The position numbers were made by a program, and so were the translations under genes. Under the pieces are notes generated by a model. It was not told the origin of the DNA and made no database searches. It saw nothing but the letters and a program-made list of their open reading frames with translations. From a virus: DNA of 42,959 nt. This document shows, one piece after another, positions 7,669-42,959 of the stretch. Numbering within the stretch: the stretch's first letter is position 1; every line of letters starts with the position of its first letter. Location of the stretch: positions 1 to 42,959 of the IMG/VR virus record IMGVR_UViG_3300034072_000110; one strand, written 5' to 3'.

Positions 7669-8055
7669 ATGGCTAAGTGGCAACACGAAACGTGTATGTG
7701 CGGCAATCTAATCGCCGCACATACTTGGGGCGACGGTCACGCGCCCGTATCCGTGGCTGACTATCTAGGAGAAGACGAAATGAACTTTGGCGAAGTCATT
7801 GAAGGCTTGAAGAAAGGCCGACGCTACCAGCGCGCAGGCTGGAACGGTAAAGGCATGTTCGTGTTCCTTGTACCGGGCAGCACGTTCAAGGTAAACCGCG
7901 AACCGCTGCTGTCCATCATGGGCGAAGGCACGGAGATTGAATACCACGCGCATATCGACATGAAGACGGCGCAGGGGTACGTTGTACCGTGGCTCGCGTC
8001 GCAGGCTGACATGCTCGCAGAAGATTGGGAAGAAGTACGCGAGCTTCCGGCCTGA
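7669..8055 (+). CDS. tad2: Tad2-like anti-Thoeris protein (DUF2829) with N-terminal extension
   Basis: From residue 38 the sequence matches the DUF2829 pattern: NFGEVIEGLKKGRRYQRAGW, NGKGMFVFLV, EIEYHAHIDMKTAQGYVVPW and ASQADMLAEDWEEV. DUF2829 is the family of the phage protein Tad2, which blocks the Thoeris defence by binding the cyclic-ADP-ribose-type signal. The full frame is 128 residues, longer than the usual core of about 90. The extra 37 residues contain CMCG...H...GDGHAP, possibly a metal site. TAGGAGAAG before an internal in-frame ATG at 7780 is a much better ribosome site than the one at 7669, so the core may be made alone. Anti-defence activity is inferred from family membership. 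Confidence 0.8.
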   Translation: MAKWQHETCMCGNLIAAHTWGDGHAPVSVADYLGEDEMNFGEVIEGLKKGRRYQRAGWNGKGMFVFLVPGSTFKVNREPLLSIMGEGTEIEYHAHIDMKTAQGYVVPWLASQADMLAEDWEEVRELPA

Positions 8056-10256: not shown

Positions 10257-10511
10257 ATGCGATTAACGGAACTGCAACAAAAGGTGTTCGACATACTCGA
10301 CACGAAACCAAACACCGATGTACCCTTGCATGACCTGTACAACGTAGTGTACGGTGAGGGGCAAAGCGATTTGTTTCCGCCGACAAACAGGTATATGCAG
10401 CAGAAGATGGGACCGTTATTCGCGCGCATCAACGCCAAGCTCAAGCGTGGCCGTATCGAGCCGGGGCTAATTAAGCAGACGTACAGGCTGACAACCAAAA
10501 AGAAAGACTAG
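10257..10511 (+). CDS. small winged-helix-like protein
   Basis: An 84-residue protein starting MRLTELQQKVFDILDTKPNT, with AGGGGCG before the ATG. The layout is helix (LQQKVFDIL), short loop, helix (LHDLYNVVYG), a longer helix (RYMQQKMGPLFARINAKLKRG), then a basic beta wing (IEPGLIKQTYRLTTKKK). This is the order of a winged helix-turn-helix DNA-binding domain. It lies between polymerase and primase-helicase and could regulate replication genes or bind an origin; both are inference. A longer in-frame start at 10212 would overlap the polymerase end. Confidence 0.65.
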   Translation: MRLTELQQKVFDILDTKPNTDVPLHDLYNVVYGEGQSDLFPPTNRYMQQKMGPLFARINAKLKRGRIEPGLIKQTYRLTTKKKD

Positions 10512-37301: not shown

Positions 37302-37317
37302 CTCCCCCTAAAGGGAG
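37302..37317 (-). repeat. CTCCCCCTAAAGGG stem, left copy
   Basis: The 14-bp word CTCCCCCTAAAGGG (37302-37315) can form a CTCCC/GGGAG stem. It starts just downstream of the leftward -10 box, so it would be the first bases of the leftward transcript. The second copy stands at 38058-38071. Confidence 0.6.
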
Positions 37318-37322
37318 AGGGG

Positions 37323-37328
37323 ATTATA
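37323..37328 (-). promoter_or_regulatory. leftward promoter -10 box (TATAAT)
   Basis: A perfect TATAAT reads leftward, about 110 bp before the 37212 gene. No good -35 is present at 16-18 bp; instead the dyad TTTACA-CTT-TGTAAA (37341-37355) occupies the -35 area. This suggests an activator- or repressor-controlled promoter for the leftward arm. Confidence 0.6.
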
Positions 37329-37340
37329 GTGCGTATCGGG

Positions 37341-37355
37341 TTTACACTTTGTAAA
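37341..37355. promoter_or_regulatory. 15-bp dyad site 1 (TTTACA CTT TGTAAA)
   Basis: A perfect six-base dyad around a three-base centre, over the -35 position of the leftward promoter. Member of the control-region array; its arms differ from the GACA-type copies in having TACA. Confidence 0.65.
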
Positions 37356-37412
37356 GCCCACTTCCGCGTGAGTTGGCCACTTTGAAGACTGCGTAGCACG
37401 CGGTTTGTCAAT

Positions 37413-37427
37413 TAGACACTTTGTATA
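37413..37427. promoter_or_regulatory. 15-bp dyad site 2 (TAGACA CTT TGTATA)
   Basis: Same layout as the neighbouring site (same CTT centre), with one weak arm position. A degenerate copy (TGGCCA CTT TGAAGA) lies between the two at 37374-37388. Confidence 0.6.
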
Positions 37428-37605
37428 GTTCGCGCTCATAGTGGGAGGTCTGCTAGGATTTTGCAGGACGTATAAGACAACTAGACGACTTAGCAGAATT
37501 GCAACTTGTAATTTTTACAGGACGGTTTGGACGCGCCGGGCCATTCGGGTGATAAACCGCAAAGTCTGATCCGCCCCCTACCCCCGCCTTGACCCCCTCC
37601 CCCTC

Positions 37606-37620
37606 TTTGCATCGTGTAAA
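37606..37620. promoter_or_regulatory. dyad-like site 3 (TTTGCA TCG TGTAAA)
   Basis: Five of six arm positions are symmetric. It fits the array spacing just left of the inverted repeat but could be a degenerate member. Confidence 0.4.
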
Positions 37621-37652
37621 GTCAATTCGTCTAATCGCCCGGCGAGCCGTCA

Positions 37653-37759
37653 GCTAACCCATTGATATCATTGACGATTAACCAACATCGAGTTAATAGT
37701 TCCATAATGCATGTTATGCGAACACACAGTGTAAAGCTCAACGATATCAATGGGTTAGC
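37653..37759. repeat. 21-bp inverted repeat enclosing AT-rich palindromes; candidate origin
   Basis: GCTAACCCATTGATATC plus ATTG at 37653-37673 is repeated in inverse orientation at 37739-37759 with a single mismatch, separated by 65 bp. The spacer contains ATTAAC...GTTAAT (37677-37697) and CATAA-TGCATG-TTATG (37703-37718), both symmetric and AT-rich, and a weak dyad site at 37721-37735. Nested palindromes in an AT-rich segment are typical of replication origins or recombination/packaging sites. The long spacer makes a simple RNA hairpin less likely. Confidence 0.7.
37721..37735. promoter_or_regulatory. dyad-like site 4 (AACACA CAG TGTAAA)
   Basis: Right arm TGTAAA and central ACACAGTGT are symmetric; the outer left arm is poor. 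It sits inside the large inverted repeat. Confidence 0.4.
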
Positions 37760-37772
37760 CTGCTAGACGTGC

Positions 37773-37787
37773 TGGACATTGTGTCTA
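37773..37787. promoter_or_regulatory. 15-bp dyad site 5 (TGGACA TTG TGTCTA)
   Basis: Good member of the array, followed by ATC as in sites 7 and 8. It lies 13 bases to the right of the inverted repeat. Confidence 0.65.
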
Positions 37788-37821
37788 ATCGGCCATGATC
37801 GAGCGCGCTAGACCTGCTAGG

Positions 37822-37836
37822 TTGACACGTTGTCTA
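37822..37836. promoter_or_regulatory. 15-bp dyad site 6 (TTGACA CGT TGTCTA)
   Basis: Good member of the array. Immediately right of it, GTCCA-ATC-TGGAC (37838-37850) shows the half-sites in everted order, so this may be a composite site. Confidence 0.65.
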
Positions 37837-37991
37837 GTCCAATCTGGACAATCCGAGCGGTTCGAGCCGTCGCGCGTCGGGCTATGTGCGCACAACGGTA
37901 AAGAGGACGGAATGCGAATGGCAATTCGTCCAGTCCGTTCCAATTCGCCGCTATTTGTCCAACCCTGCCGATTGTTCCCTTTGTCGCCAAC

Positions 37992-38006
37992 TAGACACAG
38001 TGTCTA
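37992..38006. promoter_or_regulatory. 15-bp dyad site 7 (TAGACA CAG TGTCTA), perfect
   Basis: The arms are perfectly symmetric, and symmetry extends into the centre (GACACAGTGTC). With flanks it reads CTAGACA...TGTCTAATC. It is the best single copy for defining the consensus. Confidence 0.75.
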
Positions 38007-38055
38007 ATCAGCCCGAAACGGATTTTTCACCCTATCCATACACAAGGCCGCAAGG

Positions 38056-38077
38056 CTCTCCCCCTAAAGGGGGAGAG
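38056..38077. repeat. CTCCCCCTAAAGGG stem, right copy (9-bp stem)
   Basis: CTCTCCCCC and GGGGGAGAG pair perfectly around TAAA. The core is identical to the copy at 37302-37315. No T run follows on either strand, so a terminator role is doubtful; it may be a leader stem or binding site. Confidence 0.6.
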
Positions 38078-38159
38078 ACCTAGGCTGTCCAGTGTTAGGA
38101 TAGACATTTATGCGTCTAAACGGCTTGGCAGGTTTGCAACGCTTTTCACCACGTCCAGA

Positions 38160-38174
38160 TTGACACTCTGTCAA
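38160..38174. promoter_or_regulatory. 15-bp dyad site 8 (TTGACA CTC TGTCAA), perfect
   Basis: Perfect six-base arms around CTC, followed by ATC as in sites 5 and 7. It lies 168 bp from site 7. A looser relative with an eight-base centre (TAGAC...GTCTA) stands at 38101-38118. Confidence 0.75.
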
Positions 38175-38212
38175 ATCGTCAAATCCCTGCCATGATTGGC
38201 CGCTAGATCGAT

Positions 38213-38227
38213 TTGACACTATGTCCA
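38213..38227. promoter_or_regulatory. 15-bp dyad site 9 (TTGACA CTA TGTCCA)
   Basis: Good copy with one arm mismatch; a half-site TGGACA follows at 38250-38255. These are the sites closest to the rightward promoter. Confidence 0.65.
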
Positions 38228-38302
38228 GTTAGGTCTAGCGCGCTCGAATTGGACATTTTGCGCGTGTACGACAGAAAAAGCAGAAAAATCGCGTGTACCG
38301 TG

Positions 38303-38370: not shown

Positions 38371-38809
38371 AACGATCATTAAGACACAAAAGCAGGCTCG
38401 CAACGTCAAGCACGTTGACGGCGTGCAATTCCTTTGCGGCGATTGCGGGGAAGTCAAGCCGGTTAGCACTAACGGCGGCACGGGTTACGGCTATTTCGAG
38501 CGCACCGACAACGCCAAGCCGATTTGTTACGCATGTTGCGGCAAGCGCGAATTGGCTAGCATGATCGAAACAGGCAAGGCGACGCTTTACATGACGCTAA
38601 CCAAAGGCGCGTCGTACAATCATTGCACTGTGACAGATTGGCCCGGTACATTGAAGTTCAATGGCGCGTATAGCGTTGGACGCCACAACATAGCGGGCAA
38701 GCGGTACGACGTGGAATTTACCGGGCCGGACGGTTTCAAGTGGCATGGCGTCACGTACGGCGACAATACGCAAATCTGCCATTGCAAGCGCACAAAGCGC
38801 AAGGCTTAA
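38366..38809 (+). CDS. first early gene, zinc-finger-like protein
   Basis: A 147-residue protein starting MATIIKTQKQARNVKHVDGV. It contains two Cys pairs, CGDC (24/27) and CYAC with a neighbouring Cys (54/57/58), suitable for one zinc site, and a C-terminal CHCKRTKRK. The rest is beta-rich (YNHCTVTDWPGTLKFNGAYS, KRYDVEFTGPDGFKWHG). No known family is recognised. It is the first gene on the rightward arm, so it should be made earliest; early phage genes of this kind often redirect or block host functions, but nothing here shows which. Confidence 0.75.
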   Translation: MATIIKTQKQARNVKHVDGVQFLCGDCGEVKPVSTNGGTGYGYFERTDNAKPICYACCGKRELASMIETGKATLYMTLTKGASYNHCTVTDWPGTLKFNGAYSVGRHNIAGKRYDVEFTGPDGFKWHGVTYGDNTQICHCKRTKRKA

Positions 38810-38897
38810 CGAATTGTTTACCTGTTGCGCGCTATACGTGGCGCGCAACTAGCAAGCAATTCCGCTTGATAACGCCAAGAAAGGTTTAGACCATGGC
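38808..38897 (+). repeat. 90-bp direct repeat, copy 1 (leader of the 38893 gene)
   Basis: Identical over 90 bases to 39183-39272. It contains an imperfect-loop hairpin with a nine-base stem, GTTGCGCGC/GCGCGCAAC (loop TATACGTG), the ribosome site AAGAAAGG and the ATG of the next gene. The stop of the preceding gene overlaps its first bases. Confidence 0.95.
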
Positions 38898-39183
38898 AAA
38901 CAAATATGACGTTGAATACACAGACACGTTCGCGGGTGCAGCAAACTATTCGTGGGTTAAGCGCGCAATCGTCACCATGCCGGAATTGACACATTACGGA
39001 TATGACGGCGGCACCAATTACAGCAAGGCTAACCGCGTATTCGAGCGCGAACTAATGAAGCGCGCAAAGGCTGAAATGGGCTTGACAGGCGTACGCGGCA
39101 CGGTTGAGCGCTATGGCGACAGCATGACGTTTCGCCCGTATCGCTCTTGCACCGTCATGTTTATTTCATGGCGTGACGAATAA
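38893..39183 (+). CDS. hypothetical early protein, 96 aa
   Basis: Starts MANKYDVEYTDTFAGAANYS. A compact, basic protein with beta-like ends (WVKRAIVTMPELTHYGYD; RPYRSCTVMFISWRDE) and a central helix (KANRVFERELMKRAKAEMG). The short hydrophobic/basic pattern is common in small phage proteins, and I do not recognise a family. It is preceded by the 90-bp leader and followed by a second copy of it, so the gene plus leader behaves like a cassette. Confidence 0.72.
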   Translation: MANKYDVEYTDTFAGAANYSWVKRAIVTMPELTHYGYDGGTNYSKANRVFERELMKRAKAEMGLTGVRGTVERYGDSMTFRPYRSCTVMFISWRDE

Positions 39184-39272
39184 ACGAATTGTTTACCTGT
39201 TGCGCGCTATACGTGGCGCGCAACTAGCAAGCAATTCCGCTTGATAACGCCAAGAAAGGTTTAGACCATGGC
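39183..39272 (+). repeat. 90-bp direct repeat, copy 2 (leader of the 39268 gene)
   Basis: Exact second copy of 38808-38897, again starting at the stop of the gene before and ending in the second codon of the gene after. Perfect identity at this length suggests recent duplication or strong selection on the leader RNA. Confidence 0.95.
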
Positions 39273-41834: not shown

Positions 41835-42959
41835 ATGTACATCAACGAACTGATCGGTGACAAAGCCGATATCATCGAACAGGCCATGGGCAACCCCGGC
41901 CTCGCACCCAAGCGCAAACCCACCATCGAACAGGCTATGAAGGCTGTCGCGTCGCAGGTCGAGTTTGCCGCCATGCAGAACGTCCAGCAAAAGGTTCTGC
42001 CGATCATTCAAGACATGTACGACATGTACGTACTCATGAACGGCGAGTACGAAGACGTTGGCATGTTGAACGAAGCCGACGCAGCGGTCACGGAACCCGA
42101 CGAGGATTTCGTCAACGCATCGCGCACCGAGTACAGCAGCGGGCTTGACGACGAACTGGAAAAGGTTCTCGAACCGTTCGAGGCGTTGCTGTCCGCAGAT
42201 TGGCTTGGCCGCAACACCATCGATACGCGGTTGTGGGAAGAAAACGCAATCGTCAAGCTGTCGCAGAGCGTAGCGAAAGAAGTGTTCAAGCAGCTTTCGT
42301 ACCAGAAGACGCCCGCGCAAGTCCTTTCCAACGCCGGTATCGTGCAGGCCGACGTGGAAATCTTCTTTGAACAGCACCTTGCACAAGCTGAAACCCCGAA
42401 AGGAAAGCAAGCCATGTCCGACGCTACCGCAACCAGCGCCGAAGACCTTGCGGCCAAGATCAAGTCGCATGTCGGCAACGACTTCGATCAGATGACCGTG
42501 TACGACGATCTATCGCTCGCACTGGACGACGACGAAATTCTCGCCAATGGCGCGGGCAAGCGTCTCGGCCTTGACGAGAACGACGTACAGGCGTTGCAGA
42601 TGGTCGGCCTCGAATACGGCGAGGATACCGCCGATCACCTGATCGAGCTTATCGGCAACGCGTCGAGCGGCGAGAAGGCAGCGAAGCCCAAGGCCGAACG
42701 CAAGCCAGCCGCACCGAAGACGCAGACCGCAGCGCCCGCAGAAGGCGCGGTGGACCCGAAGGTGCTGGTTCTCATGAAGAACCACGGCAGCACCAAGGAC
42801 ACCGAAATGTCCGCGACGCTTGGCGTATCGCGCGCCACGTACAACAACTGGCTCAACGGGAAAAACGCTTTTGCGCCCGATGGCGACCAGTACAGCGCTG
42901 TACGCGACGAACTCGTGCGCAACATCAACGGCTTGCTCGAAGCGCTCGCAACGCTCGAC
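41835..42959 (+). CDS. 375-aa protein with C-terminal helix-turn-helix, runs across the window end
   Basis: Open from ATG 41835 to the last base; its TAA stop is bases 1-3 of the window. It encodes 375 residues starting MYINELIGDKADIIEQAMGN. The first 200 residues are acidic and helical (MQNVQQKVLPIIQDMYDMYV; LDDELEKVLEPFEALLSADW). The middle is an acidic region and then a Lys/Pro/Ala linker (GEKAAKPKAERKPAAPKTQT). The C-terminus has TKDTEMSATLGVSRATYNNW, a helix-turn-helix-like pattern, and LNGKNAF. A DNA-binding regulator or replication accessory is likely. No family name is recognised. Confidence 0.75.
   Translation, partial: MYINELIGDKADIIEQAMGNPGLAPKRKPTIEQAMKAVASQVEFAAMQNVQQKVLPIIQDMYDMYVLMNGEYEDVGMLNEADAAVTEPDEDFVNASRTEYSSGLDDELEKVLEPFEALLSADWLGRNTIDTRLWEENAIVKLSQSVAKEVFKQLSYQKTPAQVLSNAGIVQADVEIFFEQHLAQAETPKGKQAMSDATATSAEDLAAKIKSHVGNDFDQMTVYDDLSLALDDDEILANGAGKRLGLDENDVQALQMVGLEYGEDTADHLIELIGNASSGEKAAKPKAERKPAAPKTQTAAPAEGAVDPKVLVLMKNHGSTKDTEMSATLGVSRATYNNWLNGKNAFAPDGDQYSAVRDELVRNINGLLEALATLD

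Follow-up and report, generated by a model that had tools for sequence, protein, structure and literature searches.

Genome organization and relatives

The stretch of DNA analysed here (the window) is the whole of the IMG/VR virus record IMGVR_UViG_3300034072_000110, comprising 42,959 bases. Since the last open reading frame (41835-42959) ends exactly at the window end and has its TAA stop codon at positions 1-3, the genome is circular or circularly permuted. Its genes are organized in two divergent units. Leftward from ~37.2 kb lie the structural genes, for the terminase, a BPP-1/BcepC6B-like portal, the capsid, the tail and internal virion proteins, with the largest ORF (1120 aa) specifying a virion protein with a transglycosylase match. 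Rightward from 38.4 kb, and crossing the ends of the record, lie the early and replication genes, for a RuvC-like resolvase, a helicase, an exonuclease, a Gp2.5-like SSB, a DNA polymerase and a primase-helicase. In its portal and structural module the phage resembles podoviruses of the Burkholderia phage BcepC6B/Bordetella phage BPP-1 type (34% portal identity to BcepC6B), from which it is set apart by the annotated integrase of BcepC6B and the lack of a dif-like match within the 24.5 kb of BcepC6B that were scanned.

A megablast search of the phage collection retrieved no close relatives, and the members of the clade were reached through the portal protein (61-97% identity). Three of them are full-length, namely G002 and G004, which carry terminal repeats of 100 and 127 bp, respectively, and G005, whose contig ends overlap by 240 bp with one indel. 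The presence of a dif-like site (see below) at both contig ends of G005 was considered as a possible attL/attR pair and rejected, the alignment corresponding to this 240-bp circular overlap.

The dyad array of the divergent control region

Between the two units lies a control region containing a series of dyads in which two 6-bp arms are separated by three nucleotides. A first-pass annotation of the window had reported seven such dyads, all of which were found in place, and two weaker ones can be added to them. Together with the -10-like element of the leftward unit, they are as follows:

37323-37328, minus strand: TATAAT, -10-like element of the leftward unit, conserved in relative L017
37341-37355: dyad TTTACA-CTT-TGTAAA, covering the -35 position of the leftward TATAAT
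37413-37427: dyad TAGACA-CTT-TGTATA, adjoining a minus-strand TTGACA
37606-37620: eighth, weaker dyad TTTGCA-TCG-TGTAAA (TTTGCATCGTGTAAA), 12.7 bits
37721-37735: weak dyad AACACA-CAG-TGTAAA, 9.7 bits, overlapping the XerC end of the dif-like site, similar in L017
37773-37787: dyad TGGACA-TTG-TGTCTA, lost by degradation in L017
37822-37836: dyad TTGACA-CGT-TGTCTA, identical in L017
37992-38006: dyad TAGACA-CAG-TGTCTA, kept in L017
38160-38174: dyad TTGACA-CTC-TGTCAA, with both arms changed in L017 (TAGACA..TGTCTA)
38213-38227: dyad TTGACA-CTA-TGTCCA, degraded in L017

The genome was scanned with a symmetric 15-bp matrix whose centre was neutralised and from which each site was left out in turn, and the seven dyads ranked 1-7 among 42,945 positions. 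Of the sites scoring at least 10 bits, 8 fall within the 1.12 kb of the control region and 10 within the remaining 41.8 kb, a density about 30-fold higher that bears out the concentration of dyads originally proposed. At 7 bits or more the control region contained 14 sites, as opposed to a mean of 0.68 and a maximum of 5 in 2,000 first-order Markov simulations, and in a genome search the strict pattern KDGACANNNTGTCHW occurred only in this region.

The sites are largely kept in L017 (94% portal identity), where those at 37341, 37413, 37822 and 37992 are retained, so that conservation in related phages, on which the operator reading had been staked, was indeed observed. In other clade members the 6-N3-6 layout is kept and the half-site differs. 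Within 900 bp of the dif-like site each genome is enriched in its own half-site (~15x for TAGACA in the window, 11-13x for TGTACA in G002 and G005, 12x for TGCACA in G001 and 6x for TACGCA in G004), mostly without enrichment of the hexamers of the other genomes, these figures being descriptive, as the comparisons were made after the sites had been seen. The array is not evident in the distant dif-bearing relatives L039, L059, L067 and L086, and therefore array and Xer site are separable.

Dyads also lie at or near promoter elements of the leftward unit. In the window and L017, the dyad at 37341 covers the -35 position of a perfect TATAAT (37328-37323 on the minus strand) that has no good -35 element, in agreement with the first-pass assignment of this dyad to the -35 area of the leftward promoter. 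The leftward unit of G002, G005 and G001 has a TTGAC hexamer resembling a -35 element, with a dyad ~30 bp upstream of it. The divergent promoter regions thus contain a repeated series of dyads, as expected of repressor operators.

Two other kinds of element were noted in and around the control region. A G-rich, quadruplex-like run on the minus strand (37571-37610, GGGGGAGGGGGTCAAGGCGGGGGTAGGGGG) is identical in L017 and similar in place in L007, L009, L013 and L033. Two copies of CTCCCCCTAAAGGG(A/G)GAG, which could form a hairpin, lie one on each side of the region (37302-37319 and 38058-38075) and are largely kept in L017.

A putative Xer recombination site inside the array

The first-pass annotation had overlooked a dif-like site and IHF-type sites enclosed by the array:

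37655-37667, minus strand: IHF consensus TATCAATGGGTTA, 49 bp from the dif centre, on the XerD side
37697-37724, minus strand: dif-like XerC/XerD site TGTTCGCATAA-CATGCA-TTATGGAACTA, 25.0 bits
37745-37757, plus strand: IHF consensus TATCAATGGGTTA, 41 bp from the dif centre, on the XerC side

When the window was scanned with a matrix of 45 proteobacterial dif sequences (Table 1 of PMC2731167), the dif-like site emerged as a single outlier, with the next unrelated match scoring 1.2 bits. Like chromosomal dif/XerCD systems, it presents a 28-bp core composed of two 11-bp arms, for XerC and XerD, and a 6-bp centre, in one copy per replicon, and its arms match the proteobacterial dif consensus. It differs from them in residing in a 43-kb phage, in its centre CATGCA and in being flanked by IHF consensus sites at preferred spacing. 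On the XerD side the arm TTATGGAACT is the same as in Agrobacterium and Mesorhizobium dif (Rhizobiales, PMC2731167), although the centre does not resemble the hexamers, all beginning with G, of those Rhizobiales dif that have this arm (Table 1, PMC2731167). In L017 the site is invariant except for the last base. These features suggest that 37697-37724 is a putative Xer recombination site.

The identity of the XerD arm also bears on the host. The product of 38893-39183 shares 70-76% identity with proteins from giant Caulobacter phages and Agrobacterium phage JP1 (64-67% with loci L152 and L153) and, because both lines of resemblance point the same way, the window phage is likely to infect an alphaproteobacterium. 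A 90-bp exact direct repeat (38808-38897 and 39183-39272) provides two early genes with a ribosome-binding site and start codon, and six more genes have near-identical TAGGAGAGAAGCCATG leaders.

Dif-like outliers of 20-42 bits were found in every relative whose sequence covers the control region (G002, G004, G005, G001, L016, L017, L033, L035, L039, L059, L067 and L086). Many other loci have none, their stretch often stopping short of this region. The central hexamers vary widely among phages. Searching viral contigs for exact dif cores of the alphaproteobacterial type returned 92 stretches. Identical 37.5-bit dif-like sites were also found in two related Acinetobacter plasmids with podovirus-like structural genes, pZS-1 (L204) and pAI02 (L207), a weak precedent given that dif-like sites are common on Acinetobacter plasmids. 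No strong dif-like match was detected in HTVC010P, nor any in Sinorhizobium phage phiM5, which encodes an integrase.

IHF consensus sites beside dif-like cores

The conserved block beside the dif-like core corresponds to a perfect IHF consensus, WATCAANNNNTTR. It is found at -34/-35 from the core centre in G001, G002, G004, G005 and L016, and L033 has a copy there with one mismatch. The window and L017 share copies at -41 and +49, L039 and L067 have theirs at -29 and +40, and L086 has one at +35. The site of L059 has one mismatch, L035 is cut at its end, and near the core of L150 no IHF consensus was found. Across 69 distinct dif-like viral sites, the consensus occurs 24 times in the 14.4 kb near the core and 21 times in the 520 kb away from it (1.66 versus 0.040 per kb, a 41-fold enrichment), and 21 of the 69 sites have it within 120 bp of the core.

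A composite IHF+dif pattern, designed after the sites had been seen, matched at least 119 viral contigs, and the same pattern with its IHF core scrambled, used as a control, matched 5. Among the composite matches listed (92 distinct), the gap is 21-22 bp in 69 and 28-29 bp in 12. Part of this conservation reflects common descent, because 76 of the 116 composite loci listed encode relatives of window proteins, most often terL. Short blastn searches revealed no composite in isolate phages, with dif-like matches appearing in microviruses and others.

The predicted architectural-protein site at fixed spacing beside the core is a feature shared with plasmid Xer sites, where ArgR or ArcA act and accessory sequences adjoin the XerC arm, with PepA having no recognisable motif (PMC11724359). 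Most of the window clade shares with ColE1 cer and pSC101 psi (PMC11724359) an Xer core and a host architectural-protein site on its XerC side. The difference lies in the IHF consensus, which replaces the ArgR or ArcA sites, and, in the wider viral set, in orientation: among the matches listed, the XerC side faces the IHF site in about half and the XerD side in the other half. The open-access literature searched contained no report of IHF as a Xer accessory protein, nor of dif-like sites in tailed phages, the latter being weak evidence of absence.

Integrase, lysogen and plasmid searches

The first-pass statement that no integrase is visible was upheld: neither the window nor G002, G004 or G005 has a match to PF00589, and PF00239 likewise gave none in the window or in these three complete or near-complete relatives. 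PF00589 was also missing from 26 of 30 dif-bearing viral records (of the four matches, one scored under the curated cut-off) and from 14 of the 16 other viral records bearing the composite, counts that are only suggestive, as some of these records are fragments. An XerD-like recombinase is annotated in MW202898, a relative at greater distance.

A portal-profile scan of ~85,000 species, which employed a few degenerate peptide patterns and could miss some cases, disclosed no lysogen; its one match, in a Dependentiae MAG, was discarded as a phage-sized contig. No rep or par gene was recognised in the phage, and no near relative turned up among plasmids.

Candidate regulator of the array

No HTH gene adjoins the array. 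The candidate regulator is encoded ~3.6 kb away:

41835-42959, plus strand: 375-aa protein with C-terminal XRE-type HTH, TAA stop at 1-3

This protein makes doubtful the previous remark that no repressor is visible. It is conserved in all four of the other clade genomes carrying that region (35-43% identity), and the C-terminal segment of the family gives weak XRE-type HTH matches (best Pfam E 2e-4 among members), the match of the window's own protein falling below the cut-off. In its structural model residues 308-375 fold as helices (mean pLDDT 75), and Foldseek returned no match at E 0.001 or better. The recognition-helix sequence is common to G002 and G005, which both use the TGTACA half-site, and recognition-helix and half-site both differ in the window and G004. 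With four genomes, two of them close, this correlation is a consistent observation rather than a test. Two more conserved proteins have possible DNA-binding folds (314-655 and 10257-10511). The former has a helix region more uniform among relatives and consequently fits changing half-sites less well. The protein encoded at 41835-42959 is the best candidate for binding the dyads.

Proposed function of the locus and alternative explanations

In several respects the array resembles the repressor operator arrays of phages, of which the λ operators and the stoperators of mycobacteriophage L5 are examples. Multiple short sites extend across divergent promoters, and half-sites diverge between relatives. 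The window departs from them in lacking a repressor gene beside the array and in having its sites spread over 900 bp around a Xer site. The dyads fit the operators of a diverging phage regulator, and from the first-pass interpretation the regulator/operator array, backed by the ~30-fold density and the conservation in relatives, and the missing integrase survive. The iteron proposal does not, the units being inverted dyads with irregular spacing and not regularly spaced direct repeats, which led to the rejection of replication iterons. The designation as a lytic phage is now questionable, with the array enclosing a dif-like XerCD site and IHF sites.

The reading towards which we lean, with slightly more confidence than doubt, is that an integrase-less, circularly permuted podovirus has in this region its master locus for control and maintenance, where operators surround an IHF-bent multimer-resolution site for host XerCD. 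A dimeric phage regulator, most likely the HTH protein, would bind the 15-bp dyads and control both promoters, the leftward one of the structural genes and the rightward one of the early genes. With its flank bent by IHF, the 28-bp core would be recombined by host XerC and XerD, and multimers of the circular phage genome would thereby be resolved in a repressed, plasmid-like state. The regulator might possibly affect recombination as well, since the XerC end of the core is shared with the weak predicted dyad at 37721-37735. The data suggest that a phage without integrase borrows the enzymes of host chromosome-dimer resolution, as many uncultivated relatives may do.

Alternatively, the dif-like site could be an attP through which XerCD would integrate the phage at the host chromosomal dif, in the manner of the IMEX phages, making it a temperate tailed phage with the dyads as lysogeny operators. 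Exploitation of Xer is known in filamentous phages, and also in some tailless phages and microviruses (PMC5357621, PMC7062461, PMC11630473), and CTXphi, VGJphi, TLCphi and integrated gokushoviruses have, like the window, a dif-like site and no integrase of their own; the host-type XerD arm agrees with such a use. The window differs from them as a double-stranded tailed phage for which the portal scan gave no integrated copy. We regard integration as rather unlikely and favour multimer resolution, because the centres vary, CATGCA departs from those of the Rhizobiales sites with this XerD arm, the portal scan (with its limited patterns) yielded no lysogen and pZS-1 and pAI02 carry a dif-like site, each of these arguments being weak alone.

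Other explanations concern the dyads themselves. Their binding by a host regulator or a late-promoter activator would agree with the location of a dyad upstream of TTGAC or on the -35 position, and variation of the half-sites within one clade is better explained by a phage-encoded diverging protein than by a conserved host factor, which renders this alternative unlikely, even if activator and repressor roles can coexist. It is improbable that the array forms part of a replication origin with the HTH protein as initiator: the cumulative GC skew does take low values around 37-42 kb and the replication genes follow the HTH gene, but the skew tracks the direction of transcription, the dyads are irregular over their 900 bp and two of them lie at promoter elements. 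The 6-bp arms and 3-nt loops recall the geometry of the single-stranded hairpins that serve as promoters for the virion RNA polymerase of phage N4. This very improbable explanation is disfavoured by arm matching near chance (identical arms in 3 of 7 dyads, with 1.8 expected from arm frequencies in a hand count assuming independent half-sites) and by the absence of a gene for a giant virion RNA polymerase, the largest ORF being of transglycosylase type.

Significance and further features of the genome

The multimer-resolution reading and its integrative variant can be extended, tentatively and with somewhat more doubt than confidence, to a large uncultivated group of integrase-less, podovirus-like tailed phages that would use an IHF-assisted dif-like site to live part-time as XerCD-dependent plasmids or dif-integrated prophages, with the immunity specificity of the window clade being set by 15-bp operator arrays that diverge rapidly around this site. 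Phages without integrase are commonly called lytic. Should many tailed phages of this kind possess host-type Xer sites with IHF sites, the lifestyles predicted for a common viral group would have to be revised. Were the proposal true, the Xer systems of small replicons would include an IHF-dependent form, and the diverging operator sets would amount to an immunity code readable from sequence.

Elsewhere in the window, the product of 7669-8055 gives a strong match to a Thoeris anti-defence Tad2-like domain (E 1.4e-26).
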